Shown here: piece by piece, positions 20,434-23,476 of the stretch
How the letters are laid out: each line of letters opens with the position of its first letter
Position numbering within the stretch: position 1 is the stretch's first letter
Origin: an uncultured Atopobiaceae bacterium
Lineage (GTDB): Bacteria; Actinomycetota; Coriobacteriia; Coriobacteriales; Atopobiaceae
Direction: 5' to 3'
Assembly: GCA_947599965.1 (NCBI GenBank)
Contig: CANQFP010000005.1
Coordinates: 1-43,304, forward strand
DNA: 43,304 bases
Translations under genes and position numbers: made by a program
Notes under the pieces: model-generated
Told to the model about the DNA's origin: nothing
Database searches by the model: none
The model's input: only the letters and a program-made list of their open reading frames with translations

Positions 20434-21072
20434 ATGGCGAGCGAGCTCATGGAAAACGGGATGTGCGAGCCCGCGGACGTCCCGGGGTTCGCCGGGCGCA
20501 TCCACTCGGAGGCCTCCCGCATGGAATCCCTCGTCTCGGATCTCCTCGTGCTCTCCCGCTTGGACGAATCCGAGCGCGCCGGCGACCGCAGCCTCGTGGG
20601 CGCGACGGAATCCCTCGAGCTCAACGCCGTCGTGGTGGATGCGGTGGCCCGCCTCGAGCCCCAAGCGGCCAAGGGCGAGGTCGCGCTCGAGGTGGATGTG
20701 CCGAAGGCGTCGATCGTGGCCACGGGAAATCCCAAGCTCTTGGACCTCCTCGTCTCCAACCTCACGGAAAACGCGATCCGCTACAACCATCCCGGAGGCT
20801 GGGTACGCGTGGCCCTCACGCTCGTCGATGGCCATCCACGCCTTACGGTCGCCGATTCAGGCGAGGGCATCCCCAAGGAGGCCCAGGAGAAGGTCTTCGA
20901 GCGCTTCTATCGCGTCGACACCTCGCGCTCCCGCGCACTCGGCGGCACGGGCCTCGGCCTCTCCATCGTGAAGCACGCCGCCAGCTTCCACCACGCCACC
21001 GTCTCCCTCGAAAGCGAGCCCGGCCACGGCACCACCGTGACGGTGGATTTCCGCCCTCCGCAAAGCTTTTAG
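20434..21072 (+). pseudogene. 5'-truncated sensor histidine kinase
   Basis: 212 aa comprising the end of a HisKA domain and a complete HATPase domain. The N box is LTENAIRYN, G1 is DSGEGIP, the F box is VFERFYRVD and G2 is GGTGLGLSIVKH. The protein starts MASELMENGM, which in full-length kinases lies just after the H box, so the phospho-accepting His, the sensor and the membrane helices are all missing. The frame upstream of 20434 does not supply an H box. No response regulator gene is adjacent. It is probably a remnant; expression as a soluble ATPase fragment is possible but unsupported. Confidence 0.82.
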
Positions 21073-21110
21073 CAGGGCGAATGCGGCTGTCGCAACCGCC
21101 CGTAGGGGTA

Positions 21111-21407
21111 TCAGAGCTCGTCGCGGAGGTACTCACGCAAATAGGGAATGGCGATATCGAGCGTACCGCGTCCAACGGAGTTGACGACACCCGCGTCGAT
21201 GAGGCGACGACGATAGGTTTGGACGTACCTTGAGCTCACGCCCATGCGCTCACGGATGGCGTCAACCCTGCTCGGCCCCTCGTCCTCGGCCATGGCATCG
21301 AGGAACTGGCGATCCTTCGGCGAGAGCGGCGCCAGCGCCGGCCGAAAGACCGTGTCCTGCATAAGGCGCCTCACTCCCTGCGCAAAACTGGCCAACGACG
21401 TGCCCAA
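21111..21407 (-). pseudogene. C-terminal fragment of an AAA ATPase with winged-helix tail
   Basis: 98 codons opening at a TTG, with no good ribosome site. The sequence PALAPLSPKDRQFLDAMAED, then RMGVSSRYVQTYRRRLIDAG and IPYLREYL, resembles the C-terminal winged-helix region of bacterial AAA/Orc-like ATPases of about 400 aa. Walker motifs are absent, so about three quarters of the gene is gone. A possible internal ATG is at 21362. A 10-bp repeat array sits 14 bp upstream. Family assignment is from memory of the tail pattern and should be read as likely. Confidence 0.65.
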
Positions 21408-21420
21408 ACGGGCTAATGGC

Positions 21421-21480
21421 TGATTATAGTCTCTTATAGTTTCTTATGGTTTCTTATAGTCTTTTATAGTCTCTTATGGT
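21421..21480. repeat. Six tandem 10-bp repeats, consensus YTCTTATAGT
   Basis: Six consecutive decamers: TGATTATAGT, CTCTTATAGT, TTCTTATGGT, TTCTTATAGT, CTTTTATAGT, CTCTTATGGT. The TTAT core is invariant and the following position is A or G. They are AT-rich in GC-rich surroundings and phased at one helical turn. The array lies just upstream (minus strand) of the ATPase fragment and just after the ribbon-helix-helix gene. The form suggests a multi-site protein-binding array. Confidence 0.9.
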
Positions 21481-21488
21481 TCGCGTGA

Positions 21489-21840
21489 TCAGGCCAGAGC
21501 AGCCAGTTCCCGGTCAATCGCCCTTCGGTAGAACTCGGATTTGCTGATGCCCGCCCTTAAAGCCGCCGCTTCCACTGCGGCAAGCCGCGACTTCGGCAAC
21601 CGAAACGAGACGGTCGTTGCGAGGCCCTCGATTGCCAGCCCGGCGACCTCCTCGAGTACCAGCCCGACGAGCCGAGGCCTGCATAGGGGTCGACGCCGCC
21701 GTTTTATCGAGTTTCTCGACATTTTCCCCTGATTCTCCGGTTTTTCCCAAGATACTCGACAACTCCGCGTCGGCTTTGGGGTGTTCCGCCTTAGCGACGA
21801 CCGTGCGATCCTGCTTGCCGTGCAGCACTGCGAGGCACAC
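21489..21840 (-). pseudogene. Frameshifted ribbon-helix-helix protein
   Basis: Two frames together make one protein. The first (from GTG 21840) reads LHGKQDRTVVAKAEHPKADA and on to KLDKTAAST. The second, ending at 21489, reads VAGLAIEGLATTVSFRLPKS and GISKSEFYRRAIDREL, a ribbon-helix-helix DNA-binding domain. The switch lies near the G4 run at 21686-21689. Removing one base there restores a single frame, so this is a homopolymer slip, a sequencing error or a real lesion. Relatives are small DNA-binding or plasmid-stability proteins. Confidence 0.65.
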
Positions 21841-21870
21841 CGCAAGCAGGTCCGCTCGGATGAAAGGCAG

Positions 21871-22629
21871 TTAGTTCCAAACGAGGTAGCCGCCCTCGCG
21901 CGTGGCCTGGGCGTTGGGGACGTAAACCTCGAGGCAGTAGCCCTTGTGGCCGCAGGTGGGGCAGGTGAGCCGGCGCATCGACGGGGTGTGGCGGGCGAAG
22001 AAGTTCTGCTTGAACGGCGGCCGGAAGATCGTCTCGTCCTCGGGGCACACGTAGGCCGTGTGCGTCATGTAGTGGTGCGAGATGAGGATGCCGAGCACCA
22101 CTGCCACGGGGATGCCGATCCAAAGCGGCCACCAGATGCCGGTGACGATGCCCACCACGAGCGGCGCGATCCACATGGCGTCCATCACGAGGCCCACCAC
22201 GACCATCACCGCGCGCATGCGAAAGAGCTTCTTCCTGTTTCCCATTAGGCTCGCTATGGCTCCGATGGATCCCTGGCTCACGTTGTTCAGGGATTCGACG
22301 ATTGACTTGAGCTCGGCGAGGCGTTCGAGCTTGCGTTGGCTCTCCTCGAGCGTGCCCTGGAGTTCCTGCTCTTGGTCGCAGATGAGGAGCTTCAGCATCT
22401 TCGTGGGGTCATCGTCCTTGAGCAGCGCCGCGATGTCCTTGAGCGAGAACCCGAGGTCCTTGAAGAAGAGGATGACGCGGAGCCGGTCGATGTCGGATTC
22501 GCTATAGAGCCTGCGCCCTCCCTCGGAGAGCTCGCTCGGTGCCAGAAGGCCCTTCTGGTCGTAGAACTGGAGCGTGCGCACCGTGACGCCGCATCGCTTG
22601 GCAACCTCGCCGATCGTGAAATGAACCAT
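21871..22629 (-). CDS. Membrane-anchored MerR-family regulator with zinc-binding tail
   Basis: 252 aa. The N-terminal MerR helix-turn-helix and wing (FTIGEVAKRCGVTVRTLQFY, then GGRRLYSESDIDRL) are followed by a coiled coil to about residue 115, two membrane helices (about 138-163 and 165-184), and a C-terminal domain with C195 and CPTCGHKGYC (223-232), likely a zinc ribbon. The ATG at 22629 has AAAGGAGGTG upstream. A MerR-type promoter sits directly upstream (22654-22684), so it probably controls itself. No obvious target operon is adjacent. The membrane and zinc modules suggest envelope sensing, which is inference. Confidence 0.88.
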   Translation of the reverse strand: MVHFTIGEVAKRCGVTVRTLQFYDQKGLLAPSELSEGGRRLYSESDIDRLRVILFFKDLGFSLKDIAALLKDDDPTKMLKLLICDQEQELQGTLEESQRKLERLAELKSIVESLNNVSQGSIGAIASLMGNRKKLFRMRAVMVVVGLVMDAMWIAPLVVGIVTGIWWPLWIGIPVAVVLGILISHHYMTHTAYVCPEDETIFRPPFKQNFFARHTPSMRRLTCPTCGHKGYCLEVYVPNAQATREGGYLVWN

Positions 22630-22653
22630 AGCTGCACCTCCTTTCTGGCGCCC

Positions 22654-22684
22654 ATTCCACGACGTGACGCAGCGTCACGAGCAA
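22654..22684 (-). promoter_or_regulatory. MerR-type promoter with 19-bp spacer and perfect dyad
   Basis: On the minus strand, TTGCTC (22684-22679) and TGGAAT (22659-22654) are separated by 19 bp. The spacer region holds the perfect dyad CGTGACGC-A-GCGTCACG (22663-22679). Overlong 19-20 bp spacers with a central dyad are the hallmark of promoters remodelled by MerR activators. Confidence 0.8.
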
Positions 22685-22726
22685 GCCCCAACGCAAGGTG
22701 ATTTTTCGAACATCGTGAACGTCGCG

Positions 22727-23035
22727 CTATTCAACACCCATGGAATCAAACCTATGACGAGGATTCTCCCGAGCATCGACGAGGAAGATGAACGTGAGCA
22801 GCGTGGCCTCTTCGTCCGCTATGAGGTAGAGGTCTTTCGCGGTGCGAGGTACGTGGTACCAGAGGCACGGCATTGGTGGACGAGCTGCTTCATAGACGGG
22901 ATCGTAGTCCCGTGCGAGTCCGGGATTGGTCGCCAGGATGTCGATGGAATGCTCGACGCGCTCGTAGTCTCCGTCGGAAAGTTCCATGAGCAGGGTTTCG
23001 AATTGGCGAGTGTAGAGGACGGTCCACGCGCTCAT
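22727..23035 (-). CDS. RelE/ParE-family toxin
   Basis: 102 aa (103 if the GTG at 23038 is used). The pattern MSAWTVLYTRQFETLLMELS, with a late hydrophobic strand LLTFIFLVDARENPRHRF, fits small RelE/ParE-fold toxins. The start overlaps the antitoxin stop (GTGATGA), so translation is coupled. Whether it is an mRNA interferase or a gyrase poison cannot be told from sequence alone. Confidence 0.7.
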   Translation of the reverse strand: MSAWTVLYTRQFETLLMELSDGDYERVEHSIDILATNPGLARDYDPVYEAARPPMPCLWYHVPRTAKDLYLIADEEATLLTFIFLVDARENPRHRFDSMGVE

Positions 23036-23325
23036 CACGCGGCACCGCGATTGCGCCTTCTGGCGCGGCTCTCTTCCCGCGCTACCACGTCACCCGCAGC
23101 GGCTTCTGCGAGTCCTCGCCGAATGCCCTCGGTGACCATCAGCTCATACGCCTCGTTCTCACCATCGTGCGCATTTGGAGCGGCAAGCTTGAAGGGAATG
23201 GCGCGATCGCGCACGACCGCCCTGGCAAAGAGTCCGATGGCGGTCGAGGGCGGAAGCCCGATCTCCCTGCACACCTCGGAAAACTCCCGCTTCAAATCGT
23301 CGTCGATGCTGATCGTCATCGCCAT
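23035..23325 (-). CDS. RelB/DinJ-family antitoxin
   Basis: 96 aa from the ATG at 23325 (MAMTISIDDDLKREFSEVCR), a RelB/DinJ ribbon-helix-helix start, followed by GLPPSTAIGLFARAVVRDRAIPF, strongly characteristic of DinJ. The basic C-terminus (RARRRNRGAA) would face the toxin. The first gene of the pair, as usual. A palindrome lies upstream at 23370-23379. Confidence 0.87.
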   Translation of the reverse strand: MAMTISIDDDLKREFSEVCREIGLPPSTAIGLFARAVVRDRAIPFKLAAPNAHDGENEAYELMVTEGIRRGLAEAAAGDVVAREESRARRRNRGAA

Positions 23326-23369
23326 GATGCGCTCCAAACATGGTCTGCATATATACTCAATACCCACTT

Positions 23370-23379
23370 TATACGTATA
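23370..23379. promoter_or_regulatory. TATACGTATA palindrome upstream of relB
   Basis: A perfect 10-bp palindrome 45 bp upstream of the antitoxin start, in an AT-rich island. It is a reasonable autoregulatory operator for the RelB ribbon-helix-helix domain. Confidence 0.5.
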
Positions 23380-23476
23380 GTTTAAGCATTGTTTGTATTC
23401 TCTCGCGAGCCTCGTCTCCTTCAACTACCTGTGCGTTATCCAGATTCAGCAGATTTCACTCCTCGAATTGTTGCGC

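Follow-up and report, generated by a model that had tools for sequence, protein, structure and literature searches.

Solitary AAA+ ATPases that end in a putative winged helix are mostly preceded, in one bacterial class, by tandem arrays of units about one helical turn long, and we judge it probable that each array serves the ATPase gene next to it as a private autoregulatory operator, where copies of the ATPase would line up side by side, bound by their own tails. The presence of the arrays, their phasing, their adjacency to the gene, the differences in motif between subfamilies and the association of motif with recognition helix are direct observations; binding, cooperativity, ATP control and repression are inferred. 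The window, the whole 43,304-nucleotide stretch of an uncultured Atopobiaceae contig that was analyzed, contains such an array beside the relic of an ATPase gene (Table 1).

Table 1. Features of the window at and around the decamer array
Feature	Coordinates	Strand	Basis
Array of six phased decamers (unit A C Y A T A A R A R)	21421..21480	-	Direct reading, TRF, assembly search, shuffles
ORF with ribbon-helix-helix end (RHH_1)	21489..21845	-	ORF list, Pfam, comparison with G011/G012
ATPase relic ORF from ATG, 84 aa; first 9 ATPase codons fused in frame to putative winged-helix tail	21111..21365	-	ORF, comparison with relatives
Deletion junction, single copy of 17-bp direct repeat	21340..21356	-	Comparison with intact G011 gene
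Putative recognition helix of tail (RYVQTYRRRLIDA)	21195..21233	-	Corresponds to best motif-tracking columns

Read directly from the higher coordinate to the lower, the six units of the window array are ACCATAAGAG, ACTATAAAAG, ACTATAAGAA, ACCATAAGAA, ACTATAAGAG, and ACTATAATCA, in exact tandem, and the final unit runs into TATAAT (21423-21428). TRF reported period 10 (5.4 copies, score 80) and period 30 (score 102), and the self-match score at lag 10 was 29.5, whereas none of 5000 dinucleotide shuffles exceeded 13.5, so that the near-identical tandem decamers described in the earlier note are real. The left end of 21407 given there lies about 14 bp too far, and what could be a seventh block, GCCATTAGCC (21420-21411), counts at most as a decayed unit. 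A search of the organism's own assembly (96 contigs, 1.43 Mb) located the array pattern at this one place only, with four overlapping matches; read backwards, the pattern gave no matches in that assembly. Rfam returned no gathering-score matches at 20800-22800. The placement upstream of an AAA-ATPase tail on the minus strand, also proposed in the earlier note, holds: the ATG of the 84-aa relic ORF follows 55 bp after the array, and a mechanical TTG start at 21407 would give an ORF of 98 aa.

Comparison within the genus identifies the window gene as a deletion relic. The array pattern was detected in 4 of 140 genomes of the family, all of one genus. In two sister species, nine units (G011) and ten units (G012) stand directly before an intact ATPase of ~364 aa that ends in the same tail as the window ORF, and in a third genome (G013) four units abut a 5′-truncated ATPase. 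The intact G011 gene carries, between two 17-bp direct repeats, 849 bp that have been lost from the window, where the conserved GxRGxGKT, DE, and AGLP motifs are all gone. Silent and replacement differences in the tail number 6 and 2 against G013, 8 and 3 against G012, and 34 and 15 against G015; the differences are mostly silent, but their number is too small to establish that the relic remains in use. With its gene reduced to a deletion relic, the window array has probably become an orphan operator, unless the surviving tail still serves it; either reading is inferred without binding data. A paralog in the same genome (L002, 385 aa) has 8-bp repeats in front of it. A mobile unit was sought from homology boundaries and no clear element ends were found: within the genus, shared sequence stops within ~12 bp of the ATPase stop codon, but other ortholog pairs share long flanks.

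The motifs lost from the window copy are invariant or nearly so in 21 aligned members of the ATPase family, as required of P-loop AAA+ ATPases, and include the Walker A and Walker B motifs and conserved downstream ones. AAA_16 (PF13191, gathering 32.6 bits) scored 39.2 with paralog L002 and 21.2, below threshold, with the G012 ortholog, and both fell below gathering for PF01637 (ATPase_2/archaeal ATPase, 33.2 bits), at 17.1 and 14.0, respectively. Weak profile matches of the ATPase were to DnaA, RuvB, and Cdc6-type ATPases, and no strong match to PADLOC profiles of anti-phage defense ATPases was detected, only weak P-loop or helix-turn-helix (HTH) matches (best E = 8.5e-4). For the tail, all Pfam matches were subthreshold and HTH-like (Rrf2, TrmB, HTH_24), and a PHROG match was to a transcriptional regulator (E = 9.5e-6). 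The predicted model of the 84-aa product is a helical HTH-like domain (pLDDT 70) whose best PDB matches are mostly HTH regulators (for example DosR, CodY, ArsR, and MarR), none at E ≤ 0.001; a full-length ATPase predicted from two sequences reached only pLDDT 38 and was not used.

Matches to the intact ATPase were found in 192 of 396 genomes of the class (E ≤ 1e-10). The survey sample comprised 87 among the matches listed, 80 after removal of redundancy; L025 (near-identical to L028), L029 (whose contig begins 46 bp before the match), and L035 (the truncated G013 copy) were left out. The 160 bp upstream of each ATPase were tested for an array, with 400 windows from the same loci as controls. 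An upstream array with ~10-bp periodicity was present in 70 of the 80 nonredundant ATPases at p ≤ 0.01 and in 73 at p ≤ 0.05, compared with 15 and 36, respectively, of the 400 control windows, and the pooled upstream self-match peaked at lags 10, 20, and 30. Two loci (L069 and L095) score through a different repeat. Among the seven misses, arrays could be seen by eye at L047 and L057, whose starts had been misassigned; the gene at L092 is truncated, short arrays stand at L036 and L084, L080 has about one unit, and no upstream array could be read by eye at L041. From the end of the array to the start codon the median distance is 23 bp. No neighboring gene family recurred at more than 4 of the 80 ATPase loci, and the array together with the ATPase is therefore the unit. 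The suggestion in the earlier note that the decamers may be the control array of a winged-helix ATPase family is thus supported, both by the arrays before the intact G011 and G012 genes and by those of the 70 relatives.

Spelling was compared in 75 arrays; L041, L080, L091, L092, and L095 were excluded, L036, L047, L057, and L084 were kept although nonsignificant (L047 and L057 with corrected starts), and the L069 segment was replaced by hand with the array as read. Subfamilies spell their arrays differently: TAGGAAA, GATAAA, TGCAAAA, AACGAAG, AGTGAAA, ACTAAAA, GTACAAAA, TACGAAA, GGCGAA, and others. Each motif is made up of a variable specifier of 3-4 nt and an A-tract on the coding strand, where A exceeds T in 73 of the 75 arrays. 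In the commonest subfamily, GGAAA, 16 of 30 loci have a spacing of exactly 9/10/9 bp, and the others mostly keep it with extra units or one-base shifts. TTGAC, a -35 core, stands at the 5′ edge of 27 of the 30 GGAAA arrays (background 2.8%) and of only 5 of 44 other arrays; the link is limited to one subfamily.

Array spelling co-varies with the putative recognition helix. Consistent pairs of helix and array are DYAQKYR with GGAAA, NYAS(Q/E/T)YK with GCAAA, (S/Y)FQ(Q/P)YR with ATAAA, GSVQSYR with ACGAAG, and GYASKYR with TACGAAA. In a blind scan of all variable protein columns against the motif, controlling for AAA-domain identity, position 330 ranked first in the full set (323 columns). With 40 ATPases below 60% identity, positions 330, 327, 332, and 326 ranked 1, 2, 3, and 7 of 328 at k = 4 and 1, 2, 24, and 12 at k = 5; label permutation gave p of about 0.001 for three helix columns in the top three at k = 4 and p = 0.007 for two at k = 5. 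Where position 330 is lysine, G precedes the A-tract in 33 of 34 arrays and ties with C in the remaining one; without this lysine, G occurred there in 8 of 38 scorable arrays. The window counterparts of the columns that best track the motif are T49, R45, Y46, and R51. Several results temper this association. Label permutations do not preserve relatedness, and the columns, k-mer lengths, and cut-offs were picked while viewing the data. The dominance of the recognition helix weakens once the GGAAA clade is removed (n = 44), the best helix column then ranking second behind AAA-domain column L136, and in the full set high scores also went to some AAA columns, T86 among them. Partial Mantel coefficients were alike for tail (0.28) and AAA domain (0.24); only four independent tree pairs were available, the second trait differing in none, which leaves that comparison without power; and arrays of paralogs within a genome did not differ more than those of matched pairs from separate genomes (16 pairs, p = 0.15). 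The co-variation is as would be expected if the ATPase tail binds the array, although there are no binding data.

The earlier note had asked how arrays associate with these ATPases elsewhere, and this check was made with one motif, TAGGAAAAAAAGGAAARAATAGGAAA, searched with up to two mismatches in 392 genomes. It gave 34 sites in 34 genomes, and none in the same genomes when read backwards. Twenty-seven sites adjoin an ATPase on the same strand (23 by tblastn, 4 by match coordinates), and two adjoin ATPase remnants, one of first codons only (L138) and one of a start and an out-of-frame tail (L162). Arrays without the gene exist but are a minority: the remaining five sites (L135, L136, L137, L146, and L147) are solo, with no ATPase within 1.5 kb by eye. 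Remnant and solo sites together indicate that arrays have repeatedly outlived the genes behind them, as happened in the window. A narrow 25-base pattern scanned against genome contigs matched a single locus, L007, where the contig (record title Chloroflexi bacterium) ends at three units, so that no following gene can be seen.

In the phylum, the ATPase family was detected at E ≤ 1e-30 in 34 of 296 genomes; outside the class, an array reached p ≤ 0.01 in only 3 of 18 loci (L204, L216, and L217), and most relatives there are without such arrays. By eye, four of them (L207, L214, L219, and L221) have hyphenated palindromes before the gene instead of tandem arrays, as if a dimeric operator had given way to a tandem one. 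Plasmids, viral contigs, and phages supplied 17 further relatives, two of which (L117 and L120) are versions of one locus; arrays were found in 6 of the 17 at p ≤ 0.01 and in 10 at p ≤ 0.05. Plasmid matches came from 96 records, annotated mostly as "ATP-binding protein," and phages gave one; viral contigs gave two ATPase relatives by profile, none with two single proteins as query, and one repeat match. In a plasmid recorded as Bacillus subtilis, the first ATPase residues and the array (TATAAACT) closely match their counterparts on a Brevibacterium plasmid (L128 and L129), reflecting either recent transfer or a misassigned record.

DUF4143-type ATPases, a second solitary family present in these genomes, were chosen as a negative control (L164-L193, 4 of 30 unusable). 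None of the 26 usable loci had a ~10-bp array, but 15 had upstream arrays at p ≤ 0.01 with lags of 21-33, mostly of 23-bp and some of 32-33-bp period (for example L182, L180, and L168). Orphan ATPases in general may thus be self-addressed, each family having its own unit length. That solitary AAA+ ATPases form a large self-addressed class, each with a private phased array, its own tail as reader, a residue-to-base code, an ATP-controlled oligomer, and spellings that separate paralogs like incompatibility groups, is a speculative extension that we hold only tentatively.

In the mechanism that we propose for the autoregulatory operator, the C-terminal winged helix of each ATPase subunit would read one ~10-bp unit, the 3-4-nt specifier and then the A-tract. 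With units one helical turn apart, the subunits would line up side by side along the same face of the double helix, close enough for their AAA+ modules to touch, and ATP-dependent contacts between these modules, themselves inferred, would make binding cooperative. The assembly would then cover the promoter region and limit expression of the ATPase's own gene; it is from the position of the array over the promoter region that negative autoregulation is argued, and its sign is an inference.

The alternative that survives best, although we regard it as unlikely, is that the array serves mainly as a platform on which the ATPase works, similar to an initiator site, a centromere, or a site of filament nucleation, with self-regulation as a by-product, as in ParR/parC, TubR/tubC, and iterons. 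In parC and tubC, direct repeats about one helical turn apart (10 bp in parC) lie just upstream of the operon and are bound side by side by ParR, an RHH protein, or TubR, a winged-helix protein, which also represses the promoter (PMC5016525). Partition complexes combine 10-bp phased repeats or winged-helix binding with repression of their own promoter, and such geometry can both build an oligomer and repress (PMC5016525). The arrays described here share the tandem repeats at helical spacing upstream of a gene; the weak matches to DnaA, RuvB, and Cdc6-type ATPases, the stand-alone character of array and ATPase, and the presence of up to 10 units, above the needs of simple repression, would also suit a working site. 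However, the genes occur mostly in genomes rather than in phages or viral contigs, with several paralogs per genome; no partner motor or replication gene recurs; and the array lies tightly before the gene, on the promoter in one subfamily. ParR and TubR are small DNA-binding proteins with a separate motor gene (ParM or TubZ), whereas in the present family the ATPase itself ends in the winged helix, no partner gene accompanies it, and genomes hold several differently spelled copies. Since motor and reader are one protein without a partner, we do not file the family as a partition system.

A markedly less likely explanation is that the A-tracts of the arrays, being phased, act as bent DNA or as an upstream promoter element and raise transcription with no ATPase bound. 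A-tracts recurring every 9-10 bp and the strand bias in A over T would fit it, but curvature needs no specifier, and the bases before the A-tract are specific to subfamilies and associated with the recognition helix.

We give scarcely any weight to the array being the operator of the RHH antitoxin-like gene that ends 8 bp before it. RHH proteins do bind tandem repeats in partition systems (PMC5016525), and the array has an RHH gene for a neighbor in the window as well as in G011 and G012; yet no neighbor family recurs at other ATPase loci, and G013 has an array and an ATPase remnant with no homology to the RHH region. Only the 3′ part of the window RHH ORF (to 21617) is common to the 89-aa RHH gene that precedes the array in G011 and G012; its 5′ half has been replaced by unrelated sequence with GA-rich, ~10-bp-like units (GGGGAAAATG, TCGAGAAACT, and CGATAAAACG; 21700-21780), possibly the leftover array of another lost ATPase. 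In G011 and G012, two small genes stand directly before the array, one of 91 aa without a Pfam match and the 89-aa RHH gene (L026 3023-3579 and L025 640-1195), an organization from which we infer a likeness to a toxin-antitoxin pair. Elsewhere in the window, a RelB-like antitoxin gene (23035-23424, minus strand) overlaps a 103-aa gene by 4 bp (22727-23424 together) and likely forms a RelBE-type pair with it.

Finally, a functionless slippage microsatellite, already disfavored, is hardly credible: copy number does vary among close species (6, 9, and 10), and the earlier note had named random variation as a refutation, but the 9/10/9 geometry conserved in the commonest subfamily is unlike random slippage, arrays stand at 70 of 80 loci, and there is no array elsewhere in the organism's own genome.

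As a proposed autoregulatory operator read by an ATPase, the array has partial counterparts in known systems. Iteron plasmid initiators are winged-helix proteins that bind direct repeats and repress their own expression, and iterons are longer than units of 9-10 bp; unlike them, the present family pairs 9-10-bp units with an AAA+ module in the DNA-binding polypeptide itself, and no replicon is involved. STAND-like regulators of the IniR type resemble the family in joining an AAA+ type ATPase to a DNA-binding C terminus. IniR has an SSO1545-like ATPase domain and binds and activates a promoter (PMC5760070). It is a protein of 818 aa with a MalT-like sensor domain acting on another operon, whereas the present ATPases have ~365 aa, no sensor region, and an array before their own gene, and the IniR NCBIfam model scored 16.5 bits against a cut-off of 750. 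AAA_16, ATPase_2 (archaeal-type), and arCOG03166-like AAA+ proteins with an HTH belong to the same P-loop ATPase neighborhood. Stand-alone ATPases with an HTH have been described there as having no known job (PMC4158269), and no repeat arrays are mentioned for them in the text consulted; the present family, in turn, has no nuclease domain.

Tandem operators and winged-helix arrays are already known, and in the literature, which we covered in part, no description was found of a solitary-ATPase family with its own differently spelled arrays and a visible code. These ATPases are widespread and have no known job, and the array is a first handle on them: it predicts a DNA ligand for each protein together with a readable specificity code, and it offers a route to orphan arrays and lost genes. 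The family is also a natural set in which to follow the joint divergence of a winged helix and its sites.
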